Source: Methanosarcina sp. MTP4
GTDB lineage: Archaea > Halobacteriota > Methanosarcinia > Methanosarcinales > Methanosarcinaceae
NCBI RefSeq assembly: GCF_000970045.1
Contig: NZ_CP009505.1
Location: forward strand, 1,178,001 to 1,242,000
DNA length: 64,000 nt
Reading direction: 5' to 3'
Under the pieces are notes generated by a model. The model was not told where the DNA came from. It saw only the letters and a program-made list of their open reading frames with translations, and ran no database searches. Shown in pieces: positions 40,526-61,636 of this stretch (the stretch's first letter is position 1; each line of letters begins with the position of its first letter). A program made the position numbers and the translations under genes.

Positions 40526-41338
40526 TTGAAAACTCGCGTAAGTCTCCCTTTCAGCTCCCTAATGTTTTTTTTGCTTATTGGATTCATATTGATAAGTGGT
40601 TGCTTGGAAGATGAAACGGTAAATCTAGATACCCTTAATCTATCTGACATCCCTGAAGTTTTCAGTGACGATGTTTTGATAGTTATTGGGGATAACGTTT
40701 CGGAATTGGAAAAAAGAGTAGCTGAAGATGTTGAATCTTATTTTGAAGACACATTCAGCGTTGAACCCACAATAAAAAGTTATTTGGATGTAAGTTATGA
40801 AGATAAAGTGAAAAACAACCTGATTGTAATCGGAACTCCGCAAAGCAATGGGATGTTATTGGAGATATATGGTTTAACAGATGCCGTTCCCGTCACTGAT
40901 ACCTTTCCAGGAAAAAGAAGAGGCATTTTGGAAATTTTGAGTAATCCCTGGAATGAAAAAAAATCCCTACTTCTGATTCAAGGGAATGATGATTTTGGAG
41001 TCAAAGCTGGCTATCTGGAGTTATTGAGAAGTAAAGAATATAACGAAGACAGAAAAATTACCAGCACTTTAATAGAAATAACGAAATGTAAGGAATCTTC
41101 TCCAATTTTTGTAATTCTGCCTGTTACAATACCAATAGAGGATAATGAAGAAATTTTGGAACTAATCGAAGCATGTACTAACAAAGATTTTTTCAATGTG
41201 GGAAAAGAGCCCATGAATATTACTCTTGAAGGAAATGAATGGATAATATCTGAGGTAAACCCTTCGTTGGGTCATCCTACCTGGGAAATAACTATCAATA
41301 AAACTACAGGCAAAACAGAATGTTCTTTGTATTTTTAA
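40526..41338 (+). CDS. Lipoprotein paired with the C25 peptidase-like protein
   Basis: A 270-residue protein with an N-terminal hydrophobic segment ending in the lipobox ISGC (about residue 25), so it should be lipid-anchored on the outer face of the membrane. TTG 40526 is chosen because GGTGGGAT lies five bases ahead; an ATG at 40463 is open but gives an odd leader. The first half has VLIVIGDNVSELEKRVAEDV and NNLIVIGTPQSNG, a pattern found in archaeal S-layer-type domains. The last 90 residues form a separate small domain. It ends 12 bp before the 1524-residue gene, so they are surely co-transcribed. A helper, anchor or inhibitor role for the peptidase is possible but unproven. Confidence 0.8.
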   Translation: MKTRVSLPFSSLMFFLLIGFILISGCLEDETVNLDTLNLSDIPEVFSDDVLIVIGDNVSELEKRVAEDVESYFEDTFSVEPTIKSYLDVSYEDKVKNNLIVIGTPQSNGMLLEIYGLTDAVPVTDTFPGKRRGILEILSNPWNEKKSLLLIQGNDDFGVKAGYLELLRSKEYNEDRKITSTLIEITKCKESSPIFVILPVTIPIEDNEEILELIEACTNKDFFNVGKEPMNITLEGNEWIISEVNPSLGHPTWEITINKTTGKTECSLYF

Positions 41339-44300: not shown

Positions 44301-45925
44301 TCATGGCAAAGAGAAAGATGCTTTTTGCCAATAACGATCCTCACCATCAAATGGTAGCTAAAGAGATGCATCTTTATGGAATCCCTACCTATGAAGTTTA
44401 CGTTCCAAATGATCCGCCGGGTCCCTGCGGGTATGAACTCCAAAAAACAGTTAACGGTGATATCTCTATGAAGATATTTATTACCTCCTACAATAAGCAA
44501 AAAATAACTACAGCAGAGGGGGACCGTGAATTAATAACAATACCTGGCGCTGATACCGTTTCACGTCATGGGGAATACATAGTACCAGAGATAGTTGAAG
44601 TAATCACTTTACCTTCAGGACTTGATATTAATAATTTGATAAATCAGTTCAACTATGATTCGGAGATATTGGACAATATTATGCTACCTGTGGCAAATTT
44701 GGGTTCCATATCAGAGATTGATAGTGGTTATTCTGGGGAAGAGCTAAATTTATCTGAGCTATATCCTATCAAGACTGTTGAATACGAAGTTGTAAATGAA
44801 GTAAATGGCAACAAAACTGTCGTCTTTAGAATATTCCCATTACAATACAATGAAAGTGCACATGAAGCATATCTTTACAAAAATATAACCTTTGGTTATT
44901 CAACAAAAACTGAGCCTCCAAAACCACTGGTTGACCTTTCTGTGGCGAAGAGTGCTTCTGAAACATCACTGGTTGCTGGAGAATCTACTACCGTTTTCAC
45001 AGAGATAAGGAATAGTGGAGATGTAGACGCAGTAAACTTAGTTATAACAGAGAGTTTACCAGAGGGATTCTACGCTTCATTAATTTCTGATAATGGTGTG
45101 TATGATGTTTCAACGAATTGTGTTATGTGGGAAATGGATAATCTAAGTTGTGAAGGTTTAGAAAACTTCAAAATTTTAAATTATGAGTTGCATACTCCTC
45201 TCTCTGCAGGAACTTATAAGATTGAAACAGCAGTTGAATACAGTAGTGAGAGTGGAATTGTTTATCCAGATAAAATGAAGGGTATAACTCTTAACTTAGT
45301 ATGCCCGGTCATCCCTGACAATGTACCTCCGACAATTACCTGTGATTTGTTCCCTGCTAACACCTCGGCAGGCTCTACCATTGAAATCGGTGTAAATGCC
45401 ACGGACAACGTTGGAGTCACAGAAGTAACAGCAGGCGATACCCAGCTCACAAAAACAGAAGACATCTGGCAGGGCAGCATAATCGCTCCTTCGTCGGTCG
45501 GTGACTATTCCCTGTCGATAACAGCAAGTGACGCCGCCGGCAACACCGCTGAAACTTCAGTCCCGTATCACGTTGTTCTGCTTGAAGGTGGAGCTGACAT
45601 AGCTGTTTCACCAAGAGCCAGCAGTGTAGTAGCAGGAAATAACGTTTCCGTGGGTATCAAAGTGAAAAACACCCAGAACATCGACGACATCTTCAAAATC
45701 CGGATAAACGTTGATGGCGTACCTGAATCCTACTGGGCAGACCTTTCCGGCTTCGGCTGGACTGAAACGGATGTGCAGCTAAGAGCAGGAGAGGAAAGGA
45801 CATTTCCGCTTGAGGTGGAGGTGCCTGCAGGCACTTCTGCGGGTTACAGGCTCTTTAAGGTGACTGTGGACTCCGGGACCTCGTCGGTTTACGGGTTTGA
45901 CACAGGTTACCTCATAGTCTCATGA
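41351..45925 (+). CDS. Secreted vWA plus gingipain-type (C25) peptidase-like surface protein
   Basis: A 1524-residue exported protein with a signal peptide (about 1-29). Domains in order: two CARDB/Ig-like units (about 30-310); a von Willebrand A domain with metal site DIVFVVDTSGSM (about 339-350); a C25-like caspase-fold region (about 635-1040) with catalytic-type His in TVCHGNNF (about 879) and Cys in IACHGGSTY (about 925). A DUF11-type unit VDLSVAKSASETSLVAGEST follows (about 1195-1310), then the shared C-terminal module (about 1327-1524). Gingipain-like enzymes cut after Arg or Lys; the specificity here is unknown. The His-to-Cys spacing of 46 is somewhat longer than in classical gingipains. 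The last 600 bases have higher GC than the rest and closely match the end of the gene at 49281. Confidence 0.87.
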   Translation: MKISQKVKKIFGYFLLISLLLCMVPGAVAEEEIGERAVFTVHWETPSCPVGYPCETKPLVYANQFVNISGAVKNVGDVSLTNCKITVAVKDSSDNSIVYYAIKENTTDLDVFEVKNFTEIVSNEDWLKWNTGINTGQYHVWGELEVGGETKEGWTSSFEVGNEERVAFQNFRTENISYQKNQIVNLNESASLLNVGNQEISGNLVTKIWKYDNTTKTWDKNFDVVKTSYISLNPGESYNLKDYWPGWSTNTYSDGTYKVYMAIIDGTGKVKDQLVGTRSIGKMEITLPCVTVDKYVDPVDVSCGDVQTKVSLIVGSSGCSVRDSGTFVIGENNTVSELDIVFVVDTSGSMYNEWNDLCSIMGDIVNQLSDDTHVTYKIYGLGRNYKCSDDYLAMHSESWGPGTEYVAKNYPWRAGATRVIFPISDEGPYAGGTSYSTTMSLADDESVQKAIDACKENSVIVYPMYGDNSGIEYVIIQMQKLADGTGGEIAYWRDIETAKKSITCNLFKEIKIAGKNVLLTENIIDKQGSSEPDWNSFKFDGSSIPQSELKIVSSGGIKSVTFDNSYDKNYLDLTSISSNPLERKTISYEVTLPNVLSGEKRDITEKGSFTYEDAFSGVRTSPIEIPVAFVQASSEADVLVVVDPLRLKEVYDVNEVDSLMNNLKSYCLNNNGVLYNLSVYRLEWESDHGDAYNGIYNLPDLECTENGRWQWNGWPQYASGIMHTLAIDRKVDHVLLVGSDIIIPYHRISSPSSELGYRYTTQGIHDILWSDMPYSDLNGDDWPDISISRLIGTPSIMASTLIQASTQYKTENVTVVSCALGLSETKQVANLLNTSWGFENDSVYRYYEEKDDIADITAGRLTFLNRLDEENTLIYTVCHGNNFRDPGFDIHRFSDHTTFEPYKKIIRADEVLLSETHPFFATIACHGGSTYSDDSPDTNMPLSFLDEGATGYLGSTGGTPYAGNDFFDGFFDILKKNSTGKSVLMAKRKMLFANNDPHHQMVAKEMHLYGIPTYEVYVPNDPPGPCGYELQKTVNGDISMKIFITSYNKQKITTAEGDRELITIPGADTVSRHGEYIVPEIVEVITLPSGLDINNLINQFNYDSEILDNIMLPVANLGSISEIDSGYSGEELNLSELYPIKTVEYEVVNEVNGNKTVVFRIFPLQYNESAHEAYLYKNITFGYSTKTEPPKPLVDLSVAKSASETSLVAGESTTVFTEIRNSGDVDAVNLVITESLPEGFYASLISDNGVYDVSTNCVMWEMDNLSCEGLENFKILNYELHTPLSAGTYKIETAVEYSSESGIVYPDKMKGITLNLVCPVIPDNVPPTITCDLFPANTSAGSTIEIGVNATDNVGVTEVTAGDTQLTKTEDIWQGSIIAPSSVGDYSLSITASDAAGNTAETSVPYHVVLLEGGADIAVSPRASSVVAGNNVSVGIKVKNTQNIDDIFKIRINVDGVPESYWADLSGFGWTETDVQLRAGEERTFPLEVEVPAGTSAGYRLFKVTVDSGTSSVYGFDTGYLIVS

Positions 45926-46039
45926 GGTGCTGAGTTGTCCTTTCCACAGCAGCGAGTGATTGAAATACTTTCTCTTGCTGTTTGTCAGGAAACAAAAACG
46001 TAAAGATTTGGAAAATGTTTGAAATTTGCTAAAGGTTTG

Positions 46040-46080
46040 AATCTCCGGTCTGGAGATTTAAACCTCCGGATCTTTTTATC
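46040..46080 (+). terminator. Terminator after the C25-like gene
   Basis: A perfect 7-bp stem AATCTCC/GGAGATT with loop GGTCT (46040-46058) is followed by a second half-site and TTTTT. A near-copy follows the giant gene at 61637. Confidence 0.6.
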
Positions 46081-46176
46081 TGAGTTCTTCAGGTCCCGGT
46101 GTTTTTATTCCTTTTTTTAATTCTTTTGGGACTATTTTGCCAACCTTTCGTAAGTATGTTTGATTTTCTTTTTGCT

Positions 46177-46192
46177 GGCAAATATATTTGCC
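46177..46192 (+). promoter_or_regulatory. Perfect 16-bp palindrome with TATA-like centre
   Basis: GGCAAATATATTTGCC lies 85 bases before the lipoprotein start at 46277. The centre AATATATT can serve as a TATA box, so a dimeric regulator bound here would block or help the basal transcription factors. Candidate operator only. Confidence 0.4.
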
Positions 46193-46276
46193 GAGTTACA
46201 TAAATACATTTATAAGTCCTTCTCCTATACTTTCTTAAAAATATACTGTTATGAGTACGAATTGAAGTGGGAATCT

Positions 46277-47119
46277 ATGAAAGCAAAAGCGAAATTCCTG
46301 TTGATATCGGTTTTATTTTTCTCTCTGGTTTTGTCAGGTTGCGTAAGTCCTTCTCAGCCTGAAGAATCTGCCGCTGCTGGGGCAGAAAGTGAGCCTGGAC
46401 AGCAGGGTGCTTCTTCCGGTTCTTTCGCCGAAGGAGAAGGTGTTTCGGAGAGCATGCCAGATGCAGGGGATAGTTCGGTTCCGGATATTAATTCAGAGTC
46501 CGGTGAAACGTCTTCCCTTATTCGTTCGGTTACCCTGTTCCCGGCTAACGCTATGCCCGGAGCTTCTATAAATGTTAGTGTGGAAGCAGCTTCAGGGGTT
46601 GAAAAAGTCGAGATAGCAGGCGAGGACGTCGGGCTTGTAAATGAAAATGGGATCTGGAAGGGAAGCATAATTGCTCCTTCAGAGGCCGGAGCTTATGTCC
46701 TGGAGATAACTGCCGGGGATGGTTCCGGAGGCTGTGCCGAAGCTTCAGTTCCTTACAGGGTGCTCTTGCTTGAGGGCGGAGCGGATATAACTGTCTTCCC
46801 GAGGGCGAATAACGTTACTGCAGGAGAGGAGATCCTGGTAAATATCAGGGTCAAAAATACCCAGAACGTTGATGATATTTTCAGGGTCTACCTTGATGCC
46901 ACTGGCAGTGAAGTCCCGGCTGGTTCACAGGCAGAACCCGGCTGGTTTGAGTGGAGTGAAAAAACAGTGGAGCTGAGGGCCGGGCAGGATGTTTCGCTTC
47001 CTCTTAATATCAGGATCTCGGAGGGAATAAGTCCGGGGTACAGGCTCTTTTCTGCAAAAGTTGTATCTGAAACTTCAGAGTTATATGGTTTTGATACCGG
47101 ATATCTGCTGGTGAGTTAA
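46277..47119 (+). CDS. Lipoprotein carrying the shared C-terminal surface module
   Basis: A 280-residue protein. The signal segment ends with the lipobox VLSGC (about residue 21). It is followed by a Ser/Glu/Gly-rich disordered linker (about 22-80) and then almost only the shared module: an Ig-like unit with LFPANAMPGASINVSVE and the NEW3/CARDB-like unit LLEGGADITVFPRANNVTAG. It ends GFDTGYLLVS. ATG 46277 is chosen for the signal peptide and the GTGGGA before it; the open frame upstream is not needed. Because it is little more than an anchor plus the module, it could be the membrane partner for other proteins ending in the same module. That is inference. Confidence 0.85.
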   Translation: MKAKAKFLLISVLFFSLVLSGCVSPSQPEESAAAGAESEPGQQGASSGSFAEGEGVSESMPDAGDSSVPDINSESGETSSLIRSVTLFPANAMPGASINVSVEAASGVEKVEIAGEDVGLVNENGIWKGSIIAPSEAGAYVLEITAGDGSGGCAEASVPYRVLLLEGGADITVFPRANNVTAGEEILVNIRVKNTQNVDDIFRVYLDATGSEVPAGSQAEPGWFEWSEKTVELRAGQDVSLPLNIRISEGISPGYRLFSAKVVSETSELYGFDTGYLLVS

Positions 47120-47360
47120 AACAGTTGTTTAAATGGATTCTATTTCACCTTATTACTTTTTTTATTAATTTGCCTTTCAGCTCCATGCAAGCCAGCATTT
47201 TGTTCAGTTTTACTTTTAATAATTTATTGTATAGTACTCTTTGTAATTTATTGCCTTTTATGTCATTACTATTTACACAAATTATATAATATATATTTTT
47301 CTATTGTATCGAATGCTATCTATTTTTTCTATTTAACTTCTAAAAAAGGAGGGACATTTA

Positions 47361-47434
47361 GAATAGTTTATTATGTACTAATTTTATCAGTAAATAGCCC
47401 TTATCCCCTAATTTATTCTCGATGTCTTCAGTTT
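47361..47434. repeat. Upstream element A, copy 1
   Basis: This block, beginning GAATAGTTTATTATGTAC and containing CCCCTAATTTATTCTCGATG, is repeated in diverged form at 61867-61937. Each copy lies upstream of a surface-protein gene (49 and 173 bases away), so it may be a copied promoter region. Confidence 0.65.
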
Positions 47435-47482
47435 ATTCAAGCTTTGTGCTATCATTTGTAGCCTTTAATTTGAGGTGGTGTT

Positions 47483-48043
47483 GTGGTAAAAATAAAAAAT
47501 TTGTTTTTCGGAATCCTTATTTTGTTTTTGATGGTAAATACGTGTTCTGCCGGATTTTCATTATTAGTAAGTCCTGTAGATAATATATATGTTGTGAGTC
47601 CCGGAGAGTCAATAAGTTACAATGTAATTGTAAATGATAGTGGGTTAATTGTAGGTATCCCGGACCTTTCATCTGAAGATGTTTTCTTCTCAATTAATAG
47701 GACATCTGAATGTCCTGCTAATATTGATGAAAATTATTGGAGTCCTGATTGGGTTTATACTTTCAATCCTTCAACAGTCACACTAGATGACCCAACTGAA
47801 TCTGAAATTTCAATTTTAACACTCACAGTCCCCGCTGATGCAGCCCCAGGCTATTATTATCATCCAGTTGAAGCGAAAGTATGGAATGCTATTAATTATT
47901 TCTGTGGAGAACCAGGTATAGCCCAAGTATATGTGACTGGTACAGATGTCAATAACATTCCGGAGTTTCCAACCATCGTAGTGCCAGTGATTGCGATTCT
48001 CGGTCTGGTGACTATGTTTGGACGTCGAAATAACAAAACCTGA
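47483..48043 (+). CDS. Secreted protein with PEF-CTERM tail
   Basis: A 186-residue protein. The signal peptide (about 1-23) is followed by one beta-sandwich unit with LLVSPVDNIYVVSPGESISY and ILTLTVPADAAPGYYYHPVE, like archaeal NEW3-type domains. The C terminus has the PEF-CTERM sorting signal: PEF, then a hydrophobic helix (TIVVPVIAILGLVTMFG) and a basic end. PEF-CTERM proteins are processed by archaeosortase C-type enzymes. GAGGTGGTG precedes GTG 47483. Function unknown; probably a small surface-layer-associated protein. Confidence 0.82.
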   Translation: MVKIKNLFFGILILFLMVNTCSAGFSLLVSPVDNIYVVSPGESISYNVIVNDSGLIVGIPDLSSEDVFFSINRTSECPANIDENYWSPDWVYTFNPSTVTLDDPTESEISILTLTVPADAAPGYYYHPVEAKVWNAINYFCGEPGIAQVYVTGTDVNNIPEFPTIVVPVIAILGLVTMFGRRNNKT

Positions 48044-48330
48044 TTAATATGAACAGTTATATGTTTTTAGGTTTAAATGTAAATTCTTGAAGACAGTTGT
48101 TCTTCATTCTCTATTTGTTTTTGGATACTAATTTTAACTATGGTATCCAAATTTGTTTCCGCGGTAACATTCAGTTAGCACCGCCTTTTGATTTTTCGTT
48201 TTTCTTTTCCTTACTCGTTTTCCGATTATACTAAATATATTCAAATGAATAACTTAAATGTCTTTTTTTGAATATTTATTTCAGCCGAATATACGCAGGT
48301 TGCTGCGAGGATGAAAATTTCCCCGAGAAC
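48044..48330. other. A/T-rich spacer
   Basis: No gene was supported between the PEF-CTERM gene and the decayed module copy. Confidence 0.4.
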
Positions 48331-48332
48331 CC

Positions 48333-48473
48333 TTTCCTGGCTTGAGTGGACCGAAAAAACTGTCGTCTCAGAGCCGGGGAAGAAAAATATTCAAGCTTGA
48401 GGTTGAAGTGCCTGCAGGATCCACTTCCAGATACAAGCTCTTTAGGGCTAACGTGGACTCCGAGACAATGCCC
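48333..48473 (+). pseudogene. Decayed copy of the shared C-terminal surface module
   Basis: The bases encode LEWTEKTV in one frame, then LRAGEEK in the next, then KLEVEVPAGSTSRYKLFRAN and VDSET in a third. In that order they match the last 60 residues of the shared module (for example EWSEKTVELRAG and EVEVPAGTSAGYRLFK). At least two frame changes have killed it. No upstream part of the gene remains. Confidence 0.8.
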
Positions 48474-49280
48474 TCCTGAATTTATTTCCTTGGATATTCC
48501 TGAAGTGTCAAACCTTCCGATTATTTTGTCTTGTTGTTTTTTGGTATGTTCTTCTTTCCCAAAAATATACTTCTATTCTGCTATATATATAATTTTTGAC
48601 CTAAAATAGAAAATGTTATATGGTTCTGGATAAATCCTTCCCAATTCATACTTGAATATTCTAGAGTGTTTCTAACACTGAAAAACGAGTAAAACGGTTT
48701 TTTAAATTCATCTATTTATGTGGGTTTTAACCCGCAAACAATTTCACAGAGCAGCAGTATCTGCCAGTTATTTTCAGTGGTCCCTGAGCGTAAGGAAAGA
48801 AAAGCCATCTTTTCGATGGTCAGGACAAAATCATCCGATCTCGGGTTCTATGAAAATAAGCGTTGGGGAATGAAAGAATCAAGCTATATTTGAAAATATT
48901 TATTGTTCCATATTTGTGGAGTTCGTACCGGCTTTCCCGGCCAATGAAAAAGTTGCTATCGTGCAAAAGGAAACCGGAACTCCCGAATAGCTCCTCATCA
49001 GCAGAATAAAATCTGGAGTTGCTGTTGCAATAATTCTTTACATTTAATGGGTCTGTTGTTCGATGCAGGTGTTTGATAGTAGTTTGAAAATACAAGAATG
49101 AAGATTTGAGGATCTGAATGGTTAGAGCTTTGAATTTTCTTTCTTCCTTTCGTGAAATTTATTGAAACAAAACTTTGCTAATTACTTAGAATGTCATTAT
49201 GGTTTATTTCTTGATATTTTTATGATGAGAATACTCAATTCAATAATTTGTGCTGGAGATTTATTCAAGGGGATATAGAA
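48474..49280. other. Long spacer before the giant surface protein gene
   Basis: About 800 bp. A short plus-strand frame near 48778-48892 (VVPERKERKAIFSMVRTK and on) looks weakly coding but has no start or family match and may be another relic. A/T-rich DNA from about 49130 is the likely promoter region of the giant gene. Confidence 0.35.
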
Positions 49281-52200
49281 ATGAATGGGCCGAGTAAACT
49301 AATTTGTATTGGAATGCTTCTCTCTTTTTTGATAATAGGAGTAGGTATCGGATCAGCTGCAACCATCATCAACGGGGACTGGGTTGTAAATGATAATGAA
49401 GTGAGAAGCAACGAAGAAATAATCCTGTATGGCAACTTAATTATCCCTGCCGACGCCTCATTAACGCTGGATAATGTTCGGCTTGAGATGAACGGCACAT
49501 CGGACAGGCAGCGCAGTATAACTGTGCAGCAGTGGGGGAAATTGTATGTTAAAAATGGGTCCAAAATTACAGGGAATTTCTATTATTATTTTGATAATTA
49601 TGGCTATTTGAATTTACAAAATACTGATATAAATAGAGCCTATTCAATTCATTTTTATGACAGCAGCGATGATTCTTCTGTGATTAATGGCAGTGCAATC
49701 ACAGATAACAAAGAACGGGGCGTCTACCTTGAATCCGCATCTCCTTCCATTACTAATAACAAGATAACAAGCAGTGTTCAAGGCATATATATCTACAGAA
49801 GTTCTGCATTAATTGAAAACAATACCATAAGCAATCAAACTTATGGAATCTATTCAGGAGATAATAACGGAAATTCATTGATCATCAAAAATAATTTAAT
49901 CTCAAACCACACAAATTCAGGAATTTACTATAACAATAATTACTATGGCGGCAGTGCTCAAATAACAGGCAACTTCATTGAAAATAATTCCCAAAATGGA
50001 TTATATCTCGGTCGTGCATCAGCAACTCTTGATGATAATCTTATACGCAATAATAAGAATTATGGTATCTCCACTTATAGTGGGAACAACATCATAAACA
50101 ATTCTATAATTTCCGATAATAACTACGGAATTCGCACTTATTCCGGCAGTAACATAGTTAGCAATTCAACAATAAAAAGTATCTATTATGATTATACTAC
50201 TTCTTACGGCATTATAAAATCCATAAACAGTACATTTGACAAATCAAAAGTATCTTTTTCCGGCTCGGGGTCATTGCAGGTCTTCTGGTATGATACAGTT
50301 CAAGCTAACAGAGATTATTTACCTGTTGTCGGTGCAAATGTTGAAATTTATGATAATGACGGTTTCAAGGAATCTCAGGGAGTAACAGATTCAGATGGGA
50401 ATATAAAACTGCAGGTTCAGGAATATATACAAACTTCTGCAAAAAAGCTCTATTTTACACCACATTTTATAACAGCATCTAAAGATTCAGAATACGGATC
50501 TACTTATTCAAATGTCACTGAAACAAAACAAGATTTTATTGATCTTAGCTCTGAACCCATAATCCAGAATAGTTCGATTTCTAAAAATGGGGATTGGATT
50601 ATAAATGATACACAATCCTATTCAAATTCAAAAATAATACTTGATGGCAATTTGATTCTCCAGAATGGAGGAGCTCTAACACTCGAGAATGTAACACTTT
50701 CAATTCGTTTACTGGGAATTAATGGATATGGCATTAAAATAGAAGACGGTGGCAAATTTTATCTCAATAGTTCTGCTGTGACTACATCATATCCTGAACT
50801 TGGCTATTCTTATACCTTCCGTAACTACGGTTACCTGAATGTCCAGAACAGTACTGTAAGTGGAGCATCTTCGATTACTTTTTACGATAGCAGTGACGAT
50901 TCTTCAGTCATTAATGGTAGTGTAATAAAGGGTAACAAACAACAGGGCATTTACCTTTATTACGCATCTCCTTCCATCTCAAATAACAAGATAACAAACT
51001 GTGGTCAAGGCATATACGTCTACAGTAGTTCTGCCTTAATTGAAAACAATACCATAAGCAATCAAACTTATGGAATCTATTCAACATATAATTATGGAAA
51101 TTCATTGAGCATTACAAACAATGTAATATCAAATCACACCAATTCAGGAATTTACTATAACAATAATTACAATGGCGGCAGTGCTCAAATAACAGGCAAC
51201 TTCATTGAAAATAATTCCCAAAATGGATTATATCTCGGTCGTGCATCAGCAACTCTTGATGATAATCTTATACGCAATAATAAAAATTATGGTATCTCCA
51301 CTTATAGTGGGAACAACATCATAAACAATTCTATAATTTCCGGTAACAACTATGGGATTTCTACTTCATATGGCAGTTACATAGTTAGCAATTCAACAAT
51401 AAACAGCAGTAGTTATGATTACTCTTCTTCCTATAGCGGTACTATAAAATCAATAAACAGCACATTTGACAAATCAAAAGTGGCTCTTTCCAACTCTGGG
51501 TTGTTAGAGGTTTACTGGTATGACACTATAGAGGTTCTGAACAACTCAATTCCAGTATCTGAAGTCCTTGTACAGGTATACGGCAGAGATTTGAATAAGG
51601 TTTCAGAGGGAACTTCTGATGAAAATGGAAAGGTTACTTTTACCATAAGGGAATATTCCCAAAGCTCCACTACAAAAACAGATGCAAACCCACATGTTAT
51701 CAAGGCAAGCAAACAGGGTTTCCCTGATGGTTCAATAGAATCTAACATTACAGAATCAAAGAATGACATTATAGAGATGGGGCAGGGAGAATTTACTTCT
51801 GAGCTTCCTTTAACTATCAATGGTGACTGGATTATAAACGACACACAATCATATGCAGACAAAACGATATATCTTGAAGGAAATCTGATTGTCCAGGACG
51901 GCGGCTCTTTAACACTTGATAACGTAACTTTTTTGATACAACTTTTAGGGTCTGAACAATATGGGATCAATGTTCAGAAAGGCGGAGAGTTGAATCTTAT
52001 AAATTCCTTCTTGTCGCCAGCTTATACGGAACTCGGGTTTTATTATCCATTCGATGTATACGGCCTCCTGAATATGGATAATAGTACTGTAAAAATGGCA
52101 ACGTCAATATTATTTGATAGTTTGAGTGATGATAACTCCACAATAATTAACAGCAAGATACTTAGAAACGAAGACTACGGATTGTACATAAAATCTAATC

Positions 52201-55200
52201 CGAGAATTTCAGGTAATCTCCTGCAGTACAATGGAAATGGTATAAGAATTTATTATTCAAGTATTAATGTCAGTGACACAATAGTTGAAAGATCCTCTAA
52301 TTATGATTATTATATCTACAGGAATTCCGGAATAAACTCTATAAATACATCTTTTGATGAGTCTAAAGTCTATTTCTATGATTCCAGTAGCATACTCGAT
52401 TATTCCTGGTATCTTGATGTCAAGACCGTTGATGCCAATGGAAATCCCATTTCAAATGCAAATATTTCTGTAAATGATTTTACAGGTACACAGATACTCA
52501 ACGGTTCAACTAATGCTGAAGGACTGGTTGAAAATATTGTTGTCAAAGAATACAGGAAAACAAGAGATTCCAATACAAATTATAATCCGCATCAGATTTC
52601 AGCAATTTTCGATAATGTTACTGCTCAAACATCAGTTGATGTGGATTCAAATAAAGAAGTTAAATTGTCTTTAAACGTAAATCAGCCCCTGAAGGTTACT
52701 GTTCTTGAACCTGCAAACAACTCCATCTTTGTGCAGGATGACCCTGTATCCTTCAATGCGCTTGGATTTGATCCTGTAGACGGTATCCTTATGGGCTCGG
52801 CAATAAACTGGACATCCAGCCTGGACGGGTTTATCGGTGCCGGAGAATCATTCACTTCTTTGGACCTCGCTCTGGGGGTCCACCAGATAACCACAAAAGC
52901 AACAAGCAGCAGGGGTATGTCTGTTGAGGACTCTGTTAATATACAGATAATCGGGCGTTCAGATCTCACCATCGATGGCATAAATTGGAGCCCGACTAAG
53001 ATAAATGAAGGCGAGATTGTAACCTTCAATGCAAGCATACGAAACATCGGGGACGGGTACACGCTCTCTCCGTTTTATGTGAGGTTCCTTGCCGATAATC
53101 AATACATCGGGCAGAAGCGGATTGAGAGACTAAACGCCAGTGAATCAATAGTTATTACCCAGGAATGGACTGCCACAGCTTATGCAGAAAATGTCACTGT
53201 TGTTGTAGACTATTACGATCATGTCAAAGAGCTGGACGAAACAAACAACAGGTTTACCGTTTCCCTCTCTGAAGTTGAACAGGCAGATCTGATTGTTTCA
53301 AATCTTACATGGATGCCAGAAACGTTTTATGATGGGACTCCGGTTACCTTTAAAGCCGAAATACGAAATATAGGGGTCGGGAATGCTTCCAGGTCGTTTG
53401 ATGTTGGCTTCTATATTAATGAAAGTAAAATTGGCACTGTTACGGTAGATGACGGACTTCCAGTGGGAGAAATAAGGACGGTTTCGACAGAATGGGTTGC
53501 CGTTCCGGGTATTTATGTTTTAAATGTAAAAGTTGATGATGCGAATGGAATACTTGAATCCAATGAGTCTAATAATCTAGGATCAGCCATTCTACCTCCG
53601 ATCTATCAACCGGAACTCGTAATTTCAAATATCACTGTTCCATCCCTAATTGATGATGGGGATACTATCGTCCTCAATGCTACGGTTGAGAACGCTGGAC
53701 TTAACAGCACGGAAAACTGGTTTGGAGTACGGTTCTACCTCGATGGGAATGATATCGGTTATGCAGTTATTGATGGGCTGGTGGCTGGTGGATACGAAAC
53801 CGTTTCAAAAAGCTGGACTGCTGTGCCCGGGAATCACACTCTGACAGTTACAGCGGATGCGGGTGGCTGGTACGCTTATCCATATAATGCAAATGGTCCA
53901 AGAGTGGAAGAGTCAAACGAAACAAACAACAATCTGACTCAGGCCCTTCCAGAGATCAAAAGATCCGACATAACCGTTTCCAGCCTTACATGGAACCCTT
54001 CAAACTTCAGTGATGGAGAGATTGTAACATTCAATGCCAGCATTCAAAATGAAGGATTTGGAAGTACCTCCAAAAGGTTCCATGTCCAATTCCTGATCGA
54101 TGGGGTTTCGATTGCCTATAGACAGCTTGATGGCCTGGCTTCAGGATCTCATGAATTCATTTCCCAAACCTGGGCTGCAGTACCTGGAGAACATACGATA
54201 CAGGTAGTAGCAGATTCTGCTAATGAAGTAAGCGAATCAGATGAAACTGATAATTCCCTGGAATTGGTTCTTCCAGAGGTCGAGCAGTCTGATTTGATAG
54301 TATCCAACTTTACATGGACGCCTGAAACCTTTTCAACAGGGGACTCCGTTACTTTCAATGCTTATATCGAAAATATTGGGAATGGAACTACGCTGAGACC
54401 TTTCAATACAGGTTTTACTATTGATGAAAACTTAGTTGGTATAAAAACAGTCTATGGTTTATTAACTGGTGAATCTGTAAAGATTTCTCAGGTATGGACC
54501 GCAACATCCGGAGATCACAATGTCAGTGTAAAAGTGGATTATTCCGGGCAGATAAAAGAATCTAATGAGAGCAATAACCTGCTGCTAACAAATCTTTCCT
54601 ACATTGAAGAAAAATACCTTTTACTTGTAAGCAGTGACAGCCAGAGTTATGCCGAAAACGGTACTGCTGTATTCACTGCAAAAGCATCCAGTCTGGCTTC
54701 TCCCAACGTTTACCTGACGGATAGCGATGTAAATTTGACTCTAAGCGTTCTGGATGAAAACAATAATATTCTATACACCGGTCCGATGAGCTATACAAGC
54801 TCCGGGTTCACTTCAAATGTGGACCTGACCGGTTACCCGAAAGGAAGTTACAGTGCCAGAGTCACGTTAAGGGATATTAATGGATTAACTGCCGAAAAGA
54901 CAATTTCATTCAAGATCGTAGAAAATTTCAGCGTATCCATCTCAACAGACAAATCAATTTATGACAGGAAAGAAGTCGTGCATATCACCGGCAGAGCGCA
55001 ATATGAAGATGGGAGTCCTGTTGCCAATACGCCGGCTGTTCTGACCATAAAATTGAAAGGTTATACACGGACTTACAGCCTTGTAACGGATTCCAATGGA
55101 TATTTCTCATATTATTTCCAGCCCGGAACCAGTGAAGCTGGGAATTTCACTGCCAAAATCAGCGTGAATTCTGATAGGCTCTGGATAAGCGCAGAGACTT

Positions 55201-58200
55201 CTTTTGATATGTACGGGCTTTACATGAGTCCTTCCGGTACCATAGACTATGAAATGTCTGAAAATTCATCTGAGAACATCACATTTTCCCTCAGGAATTA
55301 CGGAGAAATAGATCTGCACGGTGTAACTGTCCGGCTTGACGGAGACGCAGTAACCGGGGTAGAAACTCAGCTGGTACAGCTGCCGCCTGAAACCCTTGCT
55401 GCCGGAGCTCAGGGGACGTTTAAAGTAAAAATCAGCTCTGCAAATGTGGATGTCTCCCAGGCAAATTACGTAGTTTCAGTTACTACCGATGAAGGCAGTT
55501 ATGAAGAAGCTGAATTATTTGTCCACCTGGTCGATGCCAGACCTGCTGCCATTGTCAACCCGACATCGATAATAGCTGGAATGAACCCCAACAATACCCT
55601 GGTCAAAACTGTCAGTATCTCCAATGCCGGATACGAATCCATGAATGATATTAACATTTCAACGCCAGCTCTTGATTGGGTTTCCGTAAGTTCTGCAAAT
55701 CTCGGGAGCATTTCCCCGGGCACGAACAAATCTTTCAGTATTTTCCTCCACCCGAGCAACGAAACTGCTGCAGGAGTTTACCAGGAAACAATTACCATCT
55801 CCAGCAGCAACCATCAGCCTGTAAACATATACCTGAAAATTTCAATCACTTCTTCCGAAAAGGGAGACCTGATGTTCCATGTTGTGAATGATATTGGACA
55901 GAACATTTCCGGAGCATCAATTGCAATCCAGAACCCGGCTGTCCTTACACAGGTATTCCAGGGCACCACAGATGAAAACGGATATTATCTCTTCGAGGAT
56001 GTTTCAGTCGGTACGTATAATTATTTCGTAAAAGCGTCCGACCATGCACCAGTAAGTGGTTCTTCAACAGTTTCTCCTGAAATACAGACCCTTGTAGAAC
56101 CTGTACTCTCCAAAGACATCCTCGGAGTAGAACTCACTGTAACTCCAGTACAGATAGAAGATGATTATGATATCCAGCTGGACCTTACATTTGAAACCGA
56201 GGTACCTCCACCTCTGTTGATTCCTCACCCTATGTATCTCAGGTACGGAGTAAACTTCTCTGATCCTGTATACGAAAACGACAACAACATCATAATTTCA
56301 AACCCCGGGCTTGTTTCGGTTTTCAACGTGACGGTGGATTCGTCCTCTCTGCAGGGAGTGAACATAACTTTCCCAACCGTACACAGCTTCTTTGTCGATG
56401 AACTCAAAGCTCAGAGTTCCATCACAATCCCCTATCATTTAAATGCCACTTATGTTTCCTGCGGCGGGGAATCGTACCGAAACAGTATCAGAATCCGGGG
56501 AGATTATCTTACCTTTGAGGCAAACAGTGACGTAACCAGGAAAGTGTACCTTTCGTCAGAGCTTCCTGTTTTTGTCTACATGTATAACTGCCCGGTTAGT
56601 TCCGAACCGGTCATCGATGTAATAGAAGAACATTTCAGACATGATTACAATAGTCCAGGAGGAAGCTATTCCTCAGGCAACTATGGTGGTGACTCAATTC
56701 CTCAGGTAGTGGAAACAGTTCGTGAGAGGGTCAAATTCTACATCTCCCAGGAAGCCACTCTCGAAAGAGATGCATTTGCTGCCAGCCTCGAACTGACAAA
56801 TAAATTGACTGACCAAAACATCGAAAGTGTAAATGTAAACCTTGAGATAAAGGATTCAGAGGGAAACGACGCCTCGAATCTATTCTTCGTTAACCTGACA
56901 TCCCTGAGCAGCATCAGTTCTATCGACGGCAGTGGGGTTATAAGTCCTCTAGCAGTTTCAAACGCAGACTGGTTGTTAGTACCCGAGAAAAATGCAGGAG
57001 GTACCAATCCCGAAGGCAAGGATTACACAGTTCAGGCATTCATAGGCTATACCGTAGATGGTGTCCCCTTCAGCATAAACAGCACAGAAGAAAGTATTAC
57101 TGTGATGCCGCAGCCACTATTGGATCTGACCTACATAATTCCCGGTGAAGTCAAAGCAAATACACCCTTCAACATCACGTTGAATGTTACTAACGTGGGA
57201 TACGGTACTGCAAAGAACCTTAAACTCGACAGCGCCCAGCCTGTGATCTACGAAAATAAAGCAGGATTGCTGGTCTCCTTCGAACTCATCGGCAGTGGAC
57301 TTGTGGACGGGCCTGAGACGGATTCGTTACTTATAGACTTCGGAGACGTGGCACCCGAAGAGAGCAAAGAAGCTTACTGGGTAATGACATCAAGCCTTGA
57401 TGGGGAATTTACCGAGTTTAAGGGGTCTTTCAGCCACAGTAATGCTCTGGGTGGGGCTGAGACTTCGCTGATTAATAGTATCAAGTGTATTATTCCAGGT
57501 TCAGTCCATAACATAAACAAGGGCAGTAGCTTTGCTTCGATCCAGGCAGCTATCGATGATGCCGATTCCGGGAATGAATTGCATGTAGATAGTGGGGTTT
57601 ATTATGAGGATGTAATTATTAACAAACAAATAATTTTAAGAGGCATCAACATTGACACTGGTAAACCCATAATAAATGCTTGTTGGGAGAAAAATGCGGT
57701 TACAATTTCTGCTGATGGTGTTATCCTTGATGGTTTTGTCGTTACTGGAGCTGGAAAAAAAGCTGTAGAGGTATTATCGGATGGTAATATTATTGTCAAC
57801 AATAATATTAGCTCCAATATGCAATGGGGGATTTACCTCAGTTCTAACAACAACGAAATTACGAATAATATCATTAATAACAATTATTATGGAATTTACT
57901 TATCGTCTTCCAGCAATAATAGAGTTTATAACAATAGATTAATTGAAAATGATATGAGTGCTTTTGATGATAGTTTAAACCAATGGGACAATGGGATTAT
58001 AGGAAATTACTACTCAGAAACTACTGAAATGGATTATGACCTCAACGGTATTATGGATACTGATTATGACGGTATTTGCGATGATCCTTACCCGATAGCA
58101 GGAGGGGACAGTTTAGATAATTATCCTCTATACCTCCCCCAGCCTAACAAACCACCGATTGTATCTTTTAGTTATACTCCCGAAGGTCTAATTCTCATCG

Positions 58201-61200
58201 ATCAGGAAGTAACTTTTGATGCTACCGCATCTTATGATCCATATGGTCCTTATGATGGTGGTGAAATTGTTTCATACAATTGGGACTTTGGAGACGGCTC
58301 TACTGGTACAGAATCCATAATTAGTCATACCTACTCAATGTTAGGCGACTATGAAGTGAATCTTACATTAACTGACGAAGATGGGGCTACCAGTTACTAT
58401 ACTGAAGTGGTTCCGATTTCATCAGTACTTGGAGAAGATATTAAATTTACAGTTAGTGAGACTAAAAAAAGACTTGACAAAATTGAAACTGAAGCTAAAT
58501 CATCTGCAGAAGACGGGGATTATTTTTCGAGGGAAATGACAGATGATAAAATACAGCGTAATTGGATTATTTTTGAAGGTTTTTTGGAAGCCGGCGGGTT
58601 TATGAGTACGAAACTTGCAGAAAGTGAATATCTTGGAGATCCAGATTTTATCAACAATCCACTACGTCATGTTGGTAATACTATTAGATATATTGAAAGT
58701 TTTGCCTGGGAAAGCAAATCTGATTTGGCCATTGGATATGCTGGCGAACTTTTAAACATGGTATCTTTTGGCGAACTTTTAAAGGATAATGATGCCCTGC
58801 AAAATAACATCGCTTCACCGCTCAGCAAAGCAATAGAGGAATATAAAAATGAACTTGATAACAGTGAGAATGTCGCTTTAAGCAAAATTAGCGATATTCC
58901 TGAAAATGAAATAAATATGTATCAACAAGATTTGTCAAAAAAGAGGATTGCAAATCAACTTATGGTCAATTATCTGGAGAAAAATGGAATAATATTACAT
59001 GAGTCTAAAAAATATAGAGTAGACGATAATTCTGATTTATATAATAGTTTCATGACGATCTATGCTAAATTTGGACTAAAGACAATTGCAACACTGGTTG
59101 CTGGTCCAATGGGGGCAGTTGTTGTTGGGGAAACAGCTGTAATTGGGGATGCTGTGGAAAATGAATTCAAAATCGAGCAAGACACTTATATGTATAATCT
59201 TGGATTGGGAATAAATCTCGACGCGTACAATAAATCAGAAAAAGTTTATATGAATATAAATAAAGGATTAAAAATAATCGAAAGTGGAAAAAGGCCAGAG
59301 ATTGCAACTGGTGAAATCGTTTCAATAGGGGAACCTGTGGTACTCGGCGTTGGTGATTTTTTTGGAGTTGAGTACAAAATATTTCCGATAGAGGCATATA
59401 CTGATGTTACCATTAAAAACAATGGTCCATTCGACACGAGATATGAATTAATCGCTGATTATCAACACTGGTTTTTCAATGTTCCTCTTATAGGAGATAT
59501 TAGCTGGACACCAGTAATGAGCAATGGTAAATTGAAAATACACGCTGGACGAACTAATACAATTCGTGTGTATCATTTTAAAAATGGAGAAATTGGAGAT
59601 AAGCCAGAGAAAGGAACCAGAGTTAACTTTGTTATATTTGGGGAAACTGATACTGGAATTTATCCTATTGGAACTGGTGACACTGTATTTGGTACTAAAA
59701 GAATAGTAACATCAGGCGATTTATCTGTATCTCAAGAAGTTATAGACAATGCTGAAATATTAACATATCCCATTAGAACTTCAATAAAGACTCCCATAAA
59801 TAGTAATGTATATTCACTTGAAATATTGGCAGAAAATCCGTTCAAAATACCAATATCAGTCAATTTAAGTCAAGAAATTCCAAGTGATATAACAGTGGTC
59901 AGTGTAGATAATGGTACTATAGGTGAAAATGCTATCAACTGGAATTTATACCTTGCACCAGAGGAGTGTCACCATATAGTTGTGACATTTATTTCAAATG
60001 GTGAAACAGGAGTCATGGTTGAATTGCCTCAAACAGAATTGAATATCTATGATCCTGTTAATGATAAGACAATTGACTTCCTATCCAATTCAAACAACTT
60101 TACAACCCAATTTCCGATTGAGATTCATGCGTATCCGCCAACCAATGCTTCAGTTGGAGAAAATATTATTGTTCCTTTCAAGATCACTAATCTCTTGAGT
60201 GACTCACCATATACAGGGAATGTTCTTTTAGAATTGGAAAATTTTGAAGGGGCTGAAGTTTACAACTCAATAATGATGGTTACACTGGCACCAAATGAAA
60301 CTCAAGAAATCAATATTGAGGCTTCGCCTGAATTAAGCCCTGGAATTTATACTATGAAAGGGATATGGCAAGGAACCAAAGCCAATATGAGCATTTTTAC
60401 GAGTTATATTTCTATTGATGCTGGTGATGTTTTAGGCACTGTACTTTTGCAAAACCAATATAATAACAATGGAACTGAAGTTAAGTTGGGCAACCATAGT
60501 ACAACCACAGTGCCTGATGGGAGTTACATATTTGTTGGCATACCTATAGGGAACTATTCATTGACAGCATCCCACCCAGGTTATTCAGATTATAGTGGGG
60601 AAGTAACGATTGGTGAGGGGCTTAACACAATACCTCAAATCGTGTTAGAACAAAATAATACTCTATCAAGTATCACCAATCTCCAATCTACTACAGGCAA
60701 TACCTGGATCAACTGGACTTGGCAGAACCCCCCCGACCCCGACTTCAACCACATCGAAATCTACCTCAACAACATTTTCCAGACCAACATCTCTGTCGAA
60801 TACTTCAACGCCACCGGTCTGGAGCCCGAAATAGATTATACTATCGGTACGCGCACGGTGGACATTTATGGGAACGTGAATGAGACGTGGGTCAATTTGA
60901 CTGCAACAACCGAGGCAGAGCCGGTACTTGATGTTGAACCCCCAGTGTTTGAATCGGTAGTTATTTTCCCTGCCAATACTACAGCTGGTGCAACGATTGA
61001 TATTGAAGTGAATGCCACGGATGACACTGAAGTCTCCAATGTAACAGCAGGCGATACCCAGCTCACAAAAACAGACGGCATCTGGCAGGGCAGCATAACA
61101 GCTCCTTCGTCAGTTGGTGACTATTCCCTGTCGATAACATCAAGTGACTCTGCCAGCAACATAGCTGAAACGTCAGTCCCGTATCACGTTGTTCTGCTTG

Positions 61201-61541
61201 AAGGCGGTGCTGACATCGCTGTTTCACCAAGAGCCAGCAGTGTTGTAGCAGGAAACAACGTTTTCGTAGGAATCAATGTGAAAAACACCCAGACCATTGA
61301 CGACATATTTAAAGTCCGGATAAACCTTGATGGAGTACCTGAATCCTACTGGGCAGACCTTTCCGGCTTCGGCTGGACTGAAACGGATGTGAAGCTCAGG
61401 GCAGGAGAGGAAAGGACATTCCCGCTTGAGGTGGAAGTGCCCGCAGGTACTTCTGCGGGTTACAGGCTCTTTAAGGCGAATTTGGATTCCGGGACCTCGT
61501 CGGTTTACGGGTTTGACACAGGTTACCTCATTGTTTCATGA
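49281..61541 (+). CDS. Giant secreted beta-helix/CARDB/PKD surface protein
   Basis: A 4086-residue exported protein with a signal peptide at about 1-30. In order it has: three right-handed beta-helix blocks with N-rich rungs (about 35-330, 440-740, 845-1040), the first two near-copies with Ig-like linkers; five CARDB units, each starting like SDLTIDGINWSPTKINEGE (about 1227-1775); macroglobulin- and carboxypeptidase-regulatory-like beta units (about 1780-2300); mixed beta domains; a NosD/pectate-lyase-type beta-helix (about 2740-2950); and a PKD domain with NWDFGDGS (about 2957-3050). Then come a helical region of unknown type (about 3050-3350), a CNA-B-like unit, a fibronectin III domain (about 3794-3878) and the shared C-terminal module. 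ATG 49281 follows AAGGGGAT; an ATG at 49248 is less likely. It is probably an adhesin or sheath component. Confidence 0.88.
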   Translation: MNGPSKLICIGMLLSFLIIGVGIGSAATIINGDWVVNDNEVRSNEEIILYGNLIIPADASLTLDNVRLEMNGTSDRQRSITVQQWGKLYVKNGSKITGNFYYYFDNYGYLNLQNTDINRAYSIHFYDSSDDSSVINGSAITDNKERGVYLESASPSITNNKITSSVQGIYIYRSSALIENNTISNQTYGIYSGDNNGNSLIIKNNLISNHTNSGIYYNNNYYGGSAQITGNFIENNSQNGLYLGRASATLDDNLIRNNKNYGISTYSGNNIINNSIISDNNYGIRTYSGSNIVSNSTIKSIYYDYTTSYGIIKSINSTFDKSKVSFSGSGSLQVFWYDTVQANRDYLPVVGANVEIYDNDGFKESQGVTDSDGNIKLQVQEYIQTSAKKLYFTPHFITASKDSEYGSTYSNVTETKQDFIDLSSEPIIQNSSISKNGDWIINDTQSYSNSKIILDGNLILQNGGALTLENVTLSIRLLGINGYGIKIEDGGKFYLNSSAVTTSYPELGYSYTFRNYGYLNVQNSTVSGASSITFYDSSDDSSVINGSVIKGNKQQGIYLYYASPSISNNKITNCGQGIYVYSSSALIENNTISNQTYGIYSTYNYGNSLSITNNVISNHTNSGIYYNNNYNGGSAQITGNFIENNSQNGLYLGRASATLDDNLIRNNKNYGISTYSGNNIINNSIISGNNYGISTSYGSYIVSNSTINSSSYDYSSSYSGTIKSINSTFDKSKVALSNSGLLEVYWYDTIEVLNNSIPVSEVLVQVYGRDLNKVSEGTSDENGKVTFTIREYSQSSTTKTDANPHVIKASKQGFPDGSIESNITESKNDIIEMGQGEFTSELPLTINGDWIINDTQSYADKTIYLEGNLIVQDGGSLTLDNVTFLIQLLGSEQYGINVQKGGELNLINSFLSPAYTELGFYYPFDVYGLLNMDNSTVKMATSILFDSLSDDNSTIINSKILRNEDYGLYIKSNPRISGNLLQYNGNGIRIYYSSINVSDTIVERSSNYDYYIYRNSGINSINTSFDESKVYFYDSSSILDYSWYLDVKTVDANGNPISNANISVNDFTGTQILNGSTNAEGLVENIVVKEYRKTRDSNTNYNPHQISAIFDNVTAQTSVDVDSNKEVKLSLNVNQPLKVTVLEPANNSIFVQDDPVSFNALGFDPVDGILMGSAINWTSSLDGFIGAGESFTSLDLALGVHQITTKATSSRGMSVEDSVNIQIIGRSDLTIDGINWSPTKINEGEIVTFNASIRNIGDGYTLSPFYVRFLADNQYIGQKRIERLNASESIVITQEWTATAYAENVTVVVDYYDHVKELDETNNRFTVSLSEVEQADLIVSNLTWMPETFYDGTPVTFKAEIRNIGVGNASRSFDVGFYINESKIGTVTVDDGLPVGEIRTVSTEWVAVPGIYVLNVKVDDANGILESNESNNLGSAILPPIYQPELVISNITVPSLIDDGDTIVLNATVENAGLNSTENWFGVRFYLDGNDIGYAVIDGLVAGGYETVSKSWTAVPGNHTLTVTADAGGWYAYPYNANGPRVEESNETNNNLTQALPEIKRSDITVSSLTWNPSNFSDGEIVTFNASIQNEGFGSTSKRFHVQFLIDGVSIAYRQLDGLASGSHEFISQTWAAVPGEHTIQVVADSANEVSESDETDNSLELVLPEVEQSDLIVSNFTWTPETFSTGDSVTFNAYIENIGNGTTLRPFNTGFTIDENLVGIKTVYGLLTGESVKISQVWTATSGDHNVSVKVDYSGQIKESNESNNLLLTNLSYIEEKYLLLVSSDSQSYAENGTAVFTAKASSLASPNVYLTDSDVNLTLSVLDENNNILYTGPMSYTSSGFTSNVDLTGYPKGSYSARVTLRDINGLTAEKTISFKIVENFSVSISTDKSIYDRKEVVHITGRAQYEDGSPVANTPAVLTIKLKGYTRTYSLVTDSNGYFSYYFQPGTSEAGNFTAKISVNSDRLWISAETSFDMYGLYMSPSGTIDYEMSENSSENITFSLRNYGEIDLHGVTVRLDGDAVTGVETQLVQLPPETLAAGAQGTFKVKISSANVDVSQANYVVSVTTDEGSYEEAELFVHLVDARPAAIVNPTSIIAGMNPNNTLVKTVSISNAGYESMNDINISTPALDWVSVSSANLGSISPGTNKSFSIFLHPSNETAAGVYQETITISSSNHQPVNIYLKISITSSEKGDLMFHVVNDIGQNISGASIAIQNPAVLTQVFQGTTDENGYYLFEDVSVGTYNYFVKASDHAPVSGSSTVSPEIQTLVEPVLSKDILGVELTVTPVQIEDDYDIQLDLTFETEVPPPLLIPHPMYLRYGVNFSDPVYENDNNIIISNPGLVSVFNVTVDSSSLQGVNITFPTVHSFFVDELKAQSSITIPYHLNATYVSCGGESYRNSIRIRGDYLTFEANSDVTRKVYLSSELPVFVYMYNCPVSSEPVIDVIEEHFRHDYNSPGGSYSSGNYGGDSIPQVVETVRERVKFYISQEATLERDAFAASLELTNKLTDQNIESVNVNLEIKDSEGNDASNLFFVNLTSLSSISSIDGSGVISPLAVSNADWLLVPEKNAGGTNPEGKDYTVQAFIGYTVDGVPFSINSTEESITVMPQPLLDLTYIIPGEVKANTPFNITLNVTNVGYGTAKNLKLDSAQPVIYENKAGLLVSFELIGSGLVDGPETDSLLIDFGDVAPEESKEAYWVMTSSLDGEFTEFKGSFSHSNALGGAETSLINSIKCIIPGSVHNINKGSSFASIQAAIDDADSGNELHVDSGVYYEDVIINKQIILRGINIDTGKPIINACWEKNAVTISADGVILDGFVVTGAGKKAVEVLSDGNIIVNNNISSNMQWGIYLSSNNNEITNNIINNNYYGIYLSSSSNNRVYNNRLIENDMSAFDDSLNQWDNGIIGNYYSETTEMDYDLNGIMDTDYDGICDDPYPIAGGDSLDNYPLYLPQPNKPPIVSFSYTPEGLILIDQEVTFDATASYDPYGPYDGGEIVSYNWDFGDGSTGTESIISHTYSMLGDYEVNLTLTDEDGATSYYTEVVPISSVLGEDIKFTVSETKKRLDKIETEAKSSAEDGDYFSREMTDDKIQRNWIIFEGFLEAGGFMSTKLAESEYLGDPDFINNPLRHVGNTIRYIESFAWESKSDLAIGYAGELLNMVSFGELLKDNDALQNNIASPLSKAIEEYKNELDNSENVALSKISDIPENEINMYQQDLSKKRIANQLMVNYLEKNGIILHESKKYRVDDNSDLYNSFMTIYAKFGLKTIATLVAGPMGAVVVGETAVIGDAVENEFKIEQDTYMYNLGLGINLDAYNKSEKVYMNINKGLKIIESGKRPEIATGEIVSIGEPVVLGVGDFFGVEYKIFPIEAYTDVTIKNNGPFDTRYELIADYQHWFFNVPLIGDISWTPVMSNGKLKIHAGRTNTIRVYHFKNGEIGDKPEKGTRVNFVIFGETDTGIYPIGTGDTVFGTKRIVTSGDLSVSQEVIDNAEILTYPIRTSIKTPINSNVYSLEILAENPFKIPISVNLSQEIPSDITVVSVDNGTIGENAINWNLYLAPEECHHIVVTFISNGETGVMVELPQTELNIYDPVNDKTIDFLSNSNNFTTQFPIEIHAYPPTNASVGENIIVPFKITNLLSDSPYTGNVLLELENFEGAEVYNSIMMVTLAPNETQEINIEASPELSPGIYTMKGIWQGTKANMSIFTSYISIDAGDVLGTVLLQNQYNNNGTEVKLGNHSTTTVPDGSYIFVGIPIGNYSLTASHPGYSDYSGEVTIGEGLNTIPQIVLEQNNTLSSITNLQSTTGNTWINWTWQNPPDPDFNHIEIYLNNIFQTNISVEYFNATGLEPEIDYTIGTRTVDIYGNVNETWVNLTATTEAEPVLDVEPPVFESVVIFPANTTAGATIDIEVNATDDTEVSNVTAGDTQLTKTDGIWQGSITAPSSVGDYSLSITSSDSASNIAETSVPYHVVLLEGGADIAVSPRASSVVAGNNVFVGINVKNTQTIDDIFKVRINLDGVPESYWADLSGFGWTETDVKLRAGEERTFPLEVEVPAGTSAGYRLFKANLDSGTSSVYGFDTGYLIVS
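49360..51785 (+). repeat. Intragenic duplication in the giant gene, period 1227 bp
   Basis: Bases from about 49360 to 50560 recur from about 50587. For example GCAGTGCTCA at 49951 is repeated at 51178, exactly 1227 bp (409 codons) later. Around these points more than 150 bases are almost identical, while other parts have diverged. This means uneven gene conversion or recent partial exchange. Confidence 0.85.
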
Positions 61542-61636
61542 GGTGCTGATTTGAGCTCGTCTGAAGCAGGAGGGATTGAGATCTTATCTCTTTCTGTTTG
61601 TCAGGAAGTAAAAACGTGAGGATCTGGTAAAGGTTT

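Follow-up and report, generated by a model that had tools for sequence, protein, structure and literature searches.

The window analyzed here, a 64,000-nucleotide stretch of the Methanosarcina sp. MTP4 genome, carries several genes whose products end in the same module of approximately 200 residues, comprising an Ig-like half A (about 85 residues) and a NEW3-like half B (about 113 residues). The first-pass annotation had described this shared end in three proteins, namely a C25-like protein, a lipoprotein, and a giant protein. Searches with tblastn on the window and within the genome confirmed these copies and revealed a fourth full one, with 76% identity, which forms the C-terminus of a cohesin/PKD protein and lies beyond the window end (Table 1). 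The copies matched one another with E values of 1e-57 to 1e-109 at 49-86% identity, which excludes a chance resemblance. In the three proteins described earlier, the motif GFDTGYL(I/L)VS stands directly before the stop codon and nothing follows it, as had been reported. The four module genes, a decayed fragment, and a partner gene form one cluster of about 24 kb. In the rest of the 4.21-Mb genome, the own-genome search yielded partial matches only, mainly half-A-like repeats.

Table 1. Genes and features of the module cluster, in window positions.
Feature	Position	Strand	Description
Client 1	41351-45925	+	Secreted multidomain protein: VWA region, C25-like region (label of the first-pass annotation), DUF11, terminal module
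Module copy 1	45317-45922	+	Half A until about 45580, half B up to the stop
Repeated DNA unit	45350-46020 / 60966-61636	+	C25-like and giant genes; 87% identical; extends about 95 bp beyond the stop codon
Client 2	46277-47119	+	Lipoprotein (signal ...SGC), 280 aa, mostly module
Module copy 2	46511-47116	+	Found by tblastn
Partner (proposed socket)	47483-48043	+	186 aa: signal peptide, one Ig-like domain, PEF-CTERM tail
PEF-CTERM sorting tail of partner	47957-48028	+	G000:C1:1225957-1226028
Decayed half B fragment	48331-48467	+	DNA 72-75% identical to the living copies
Client 3	49248-61541	+	4097-aa beta-helix/CARDB/PKD protein, terminal module
Module copy 3	60930-61538	+	Found by tblastn
Client 4	62110-64000	+	Cohesin and PKD repeat protein, 1032 aa, cut at the window end; module ends at window coordinate 65205

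The dead copy mentioned by the first-pass annotation is real but small, being confined to the fragment listed in Table 1. Similar decayed module remnants were observed 3' of the partner in G003 and G169 (L047 2770-2985 and L161 6500-6930). The decayed pieces just 3' of the partner in these three genomes appear as if two module genes had once flanked it.

The module proteins matched no CTERM model, in agreement with the earlier description, and their reading frames close with the folded module, without a tail motif, hydrophobic stretch, or basic end. Half B scored 18.6 and 20.3 bits against NEW3 / NPCBM_assoc (PF10633), below the Pfam cut-off of 24.4. In the structure model of the module (pLDDT 95.8, pTM 0.83), the last strand (193-202) was built into the sheet, so that the predicted C-terminus is a folded domain and not a cleavable tail. 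The fold of half B resembled Ig domains of the macroglobulin/complement and sialidase types, with Z scores reaching 11.6 over about 100 residues; among these was an Ig-like domain from a bacterial sialidase (Z 10.9, 21% identity over 97 aligned residues). The top Foldseek rows also included the biofilm protein RbmA, with a poor superposition (rmsd about 18). Because these folds are common, no function was drawn from the fold search.

The two halves differed in their distribution. Among 99 related genomes, many proteins contained half A as a repeat at internal positions, and full modules were rare. A half B profile applied to 49 fetched stretches produced 57 matches, some of them contig-end pieces and decayed copies, and 53 of these were C-terminal (46 at 0-5 residues and 7 at 11-18 residues from the frame end). 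The four internal matches were one tandem copy in G060 and weak ones in G336, G370, and G430. The expectation that the module is always C-terminal is thus largely borne out for half B but not for half A, which is often internal.

Two observations concern how the module spreads. The DNA repeat common to the C25-like gene and the giant gene continues past the stop codon (Table 1), and in G010 many contigs break within the module, the copies there being up to 96% identical. We read these observations as a sign that the 3' end of the gene moves by recombination. At least ten module copies or pieces were present on the G010 contigs (L050-L063), many at contig ends. A 163-aa reading frame in G010 (L057 596-1087) combines a signal peptide with part of half A and half B.

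Judged by eye, the complete client reading frames start with a signal peptide, as would be expected from the earlier claim that the module is carried by exported proteins. The lipoprotein frame (46160-47119) opens at a TTG at 46160, and its likely start is the ATG at 46277. The front ends of the clients were diverse and included beta-helix and CARDB, PKD, FG-GAP, Amidase_3, papain with a lectin-like domain, C39 peptidase, VWA, and cohesin regions. The C25-like region had no Pfam C25 match and nothing convincing in the solved-structure search, and the name is retained solely as a label of the first-pass annotation. An N-terminal cohesin domain in client 4 (window 62110-64000; L074 8924-10342) scored above the Pfam cut-off. 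Since the window's genome contains three dockerin matches above the cut-off, this client may hold dockerin proteins and may serve as a scaffold for anchoring. Elsewhere in the genome (L231 2309-3637; G000:C1:1324808-1326136), a gene encodes a 442-aa dockerin protein that has a signal peptide, and a PEF-CTERM tail lies in a separate 97-aa frame about 210 bp 3' of it. A lipoprotein-like reading frame with a weak BcsB-like match (window 40463-41338) lies 5' of the C25-like gene.

The partner gene, which the first-pass annotation passed over, encodes a protein with a tail matching the PEF-CTERM model TIGR03024 (24.2 bits, above the curated cut-off of 23). By hhalign, half B and the outer domain of this protein are remotely homologous (95.1%, E 3.2e-8), and wider profiles with the tail removed yielded 97.3% (E 1.7e-11). 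The partner had no Pfam match, and hence none to cohesin. Its structure model, which was poor (pLDDT 64.9), contained a single beta domain and a tail helix of 14 residues, and it is from this model that weak Foldseek matches to cohesins stem. The genome encodes archaeosortase C (ArtC; TIGR03762, E 1e-123, G000:C1:3252074-3252895). The tail marks the partner as a predicted archaeosortase C substrate that would be cleaved and attached to a lipid, two steps that are described for ArtA substrates (PMC7157517).

A small PEF-CTERM protein adjoined the module gene in 6 of the first 10 stretches read. Because these six initial partners had been chosen by adjacency, reverse profile searches were run. 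The full partner profile produced 15 matches at E<=1e-20 in the 185 genomes of the order, six belonging to the profile and nine outside it, and all 15 adjoined module genes. The next match (G002:C46, 3.6e-15) did not adjoin a module gene, and most lower ones reflected the common PEF tail. The outer-domain profile produced 16 matches at E<=1e-10 in 13 of 392 genomes of the phylum, and again 16/16 adjoined module genes; nine were outside the profile, of which seven came from the distant family f10 and the other two from the genus of the window. At these thresholds, the partner outer domain was found only beside module genes, and other PEF-CTERM proteins in nine stretches had no match to it. Two of the 16 matches (G252 and G345:C124) occurred in longer proteins with no obvious tail. 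Such partner-like proteins, of 446-457 aa, were observed 3' of module genes in G345 and G252 (L193 1511-2851, L196 1749-3122).

Half B was detected in 28 genomes (E<=1e-6 in the order and E<=1e-8 in the 392-genome sample of the phylum; weak or internal matches in G071, G336, G370, and G430 excluded). These comprise 16 genomes of the order (17 minus the weak G071) and 12 of families f10 and f17 of the same phylum. Named records with the module include Methanosarcina sp. 2.H.T.1A.6, KYL-1, and UBA10923, the Methanosarcinaceae archaea UBA9310 and HMMV2, and three Euryarchaeota MAGs; G001-G003 belong to the genus of the window's genome (G000). Both genes of the pair are present in Methanosarcina sp. 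2.H.T.1A.6. A tail-anchored partner adjoined a module gene in 23 of the 28 genomes, a count in which related genomes are not independent. Module gene and partner lay side by side on the same strand in 13/16 genomes of the order, the partner being frameshifted in two of these, and in 10/12 outside the window's class, and the gaps between the two reading frames in the deep branches were about 1-35 bp. We are highly confident that the module gene and the partner constitute a real conserved gene pair.

The frameshifted partners, in G064 (L066 4171-4655) and G003 (L047 2107-2609), are either pseudogenes or assembly errors; both genomes had no ArtC match. The partner was not seen in G160 (a Methanosarcina), G171, and G177 of the order or in G305, all of which contain half B. 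A module gene of Methanosarcina sp. KYL-1 (L170 8803-10221) has the downstream neighbours of the window's genus (a transporter, a WD40-like protein, and a symporter) without the partner, which looks like a loss at the orthologous locus, judging from gene order. In genomes with several copies, the partner lay directly beside 1/4 module genes in G000, 3/8 in G010, 1/3 in G168, and 1/3 in G179. The G010 count covers full or near-full copies without contig-end pieces, and one of the eight (G010:C110) has only 595 bp downstream.

We also compared the occurrence of ArtC and the types of partner tail. ArtC scored above the cut-off in 62/185 genomes of the order and in 11/16 module genomes. It was present in 10/13 partner genomes of the order vs 52/172 others (Fisher p 0.0012, the related genomes not being independent). 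Outside the order, it was found in 6/8 f10 genomes and 0/4 f17 genomes. An ArtC match was absent in G003, G064, and G179 and only weak in G309 and G382. The f10 genomes G236, G302, and G309 carried a PEF-like tail (two above the cut-off and one at 17.9 bits vs 23), the tails of G345 and G382 had a weak likeness to IPTL-CTERM or the XrtH type, and that of G374 was similar by eye. The partner tails of the four f17 genomes resembled one another; a scan of one of them against CTERM models gave no match. Since G309 combines a PEF tail with a weak ArtC match, and G345 and G374 combine ArtC with other tails, tail type and sortase coincide only in part. General archaeosortase matches were present in 18/18 genomes tested and were not discriminating.

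On the basis of these findings, we propose that half B may act as a folded C-terminal docking domain of secreted clients and that the partner may be an Ig-like socket tethered to the membrane through its sortase tail. Clients with diverse front ends (proteases, amidases, beta-helix/PKD adhesins, and the cohesin protein) would thereby be retained at the surface, half B making a non-covalent contact with the homologous Ig-like domain of the socket. One socket could serve several clients, because clients outnumber sockets. Docking is the simplest account, since tail-less clients end in a folded domain and a homologous, sortase-tailed partner adjoins some of them; we give it an even chance of being correct. 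Several observations argue against it. The lipoprotein client is already anchored and would not need the module for its retention, and where a genome has several copies, many module genes lack an adjoining partner; in some genomes none was seen. The partner-like proteins with no obvious tail in G252 and at one G345 locus, and the genomes with no ArtC match or a weak one, also count against it.

Three candidate lines of evidence for a direct link between client and partner were rejected. The distance matrices of module and partner correlated over all 17 pairs (r 0.65), a value confounded by ancestry, and the correlation was weak within family f1 (r 0.18, p 0.053); co-evolution was therefore not adopted as evidence. 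Stop-codon read-through fusing client and partner was unsupported, the stops of the 18 listed module genes being TGA (15) or TAA (3) and none TAG, and fused client-partner proteins were absent from the nine stretches with other PEF-CTERM proteins.

The homology between half B and the partner, the generic repeat character of half A, the ordinary Ig/macroglobulin-type folds, and the DNA unit that travels with its 3' flank would also suit an operon of two surface proteins that share a duplicated Ig-like domain by common ancestry. The module would then be a spacer or stalk spread by gene-end recombination, and no docking would occur. A spacer, however, has no need of the C-terminal place that half B occupies in 53 of 57 matches, and adjacency to the partner persists over distant families at low identity. 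We consider this explanation unlikely, although it is the strongest competitor of docking. The partner might otherwise be a membrane-held assembly or processing factor, resembling a chaperone, and the clients might finally be released or passed to the S-layer. Its small size and place beside the clients, their excess over partners, and the anchor already present on the lipoprotein agree with such a role; nevertheless, the partner had no Pfam match and thus no likeness to a known chaperone or enzyme, and we regard this role as improbable.

Still less probable is a direct binding of half B, and in parallel of the partner, to surface polysaccharide or the S-layer. The similarity to the bacterial sialidase Ig-like domain and the wall- and carbohydrate-related domains among the clients point in that direction, but such binding would not account for how closely the module is linked in the genomes to a partner with a sortase tail. 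The first-pass annotation had proposed a surface retention or assembly module with the lipoprotein as membrane receptor and had expected a short lipoprotein form in every module genome. The C-terminal place of half B and the signal peptides are consistent with the first part of this proposal. Although the lipoprotein is mostly module, its form was found in only 3/28 half B genomes (G000, G001, and G003), all of one genus, and long module proteins occur without it; the lipoprotein is therefore rejected as a general receptor, a role that we consider highly improbable. The partner, as a conserved neighbour, is the better receptor candidate.

Two-part anchoring is already known in archaea (SlaA/SlaB) and in bacteria (cohesin-dockerin), as is sorting by archaeosortase C. 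The S-layer of Sulfolobales combines the large secreted SlaA with the smaller membrane-anchored SlaB, which has three beta-sandwich domains, thought to contact the large protein, and a long C-terminal helix (PMC10903991). The likeness lies in the pairing of a large secreted protein with a smaller anchored beta-domain protein. In contrast to SlaB, the partner has one domain and a sortase tail; where SlaB has a long C-terminal helix, the low-confidence model of the partner shows a tail helix of 14 residues. The client end is, moreover, a module shared by unrelated proteins. The partner resembles archaeosortase C substrates in its PEF-CTERM tail and in the presence of ArtC in the genome (PMC5244752, PMC9723798). 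The clients, however, are tail-less, and an adaptor would extend sorting to non-substrates.

Cohesin-dockerin systems, including the cohesin/dockerin sets of ANME archaea (PMC9012536), similarly join a modular plug on many proteins to a beta-sandwich socket on an anchored protein, an arrangement that would be analogous here. The module differs in that no dockerin Pfam match was found in the clients scanned, and the partner has no cohesin Pfam match. The choice-of-anchor families (NCBIfam NF041740) likewise join ectodomains to exchangeable anchor tails; the lipoprotein and one partner matched them weakly and locally, at 16.4 and 15 bits where the cut-off is 70. The C-terminal domains of type IX secretion are also C-terminal Ig-like domains on diverse secreted proteins. 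That system belongs to another group of organisms, and an outer membrane is absent here; the NCBIfam scan, taken up to E 0.1, matched no model of a type IX C-terminal domain. By the tests made, the module/partner pair fits none of the systems compared. The literature searched, in which subscription journals were mostly absent and articles were partly available, contained no account of such a partner or docking module.

More generally, and with somewhat less than even confidence, we suggest that archaea may possess a two-part surface display in which a C-terminal Ig-like plug, swapped among unrelated secreted proteins by gene-end recombination, fits an archaeosortase-tethered Ig-like socket, the socket domain being kept while the anchor tail varies by lineage. 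Many large secreted archaeal surface proteins have no visible anchor. If the docking proposal is true, one sortase substrate could hold many clients, unannotated proteins would gain a predictable place, and the module could be used as a display tag in methanogens and in methane-oxidising archaea.
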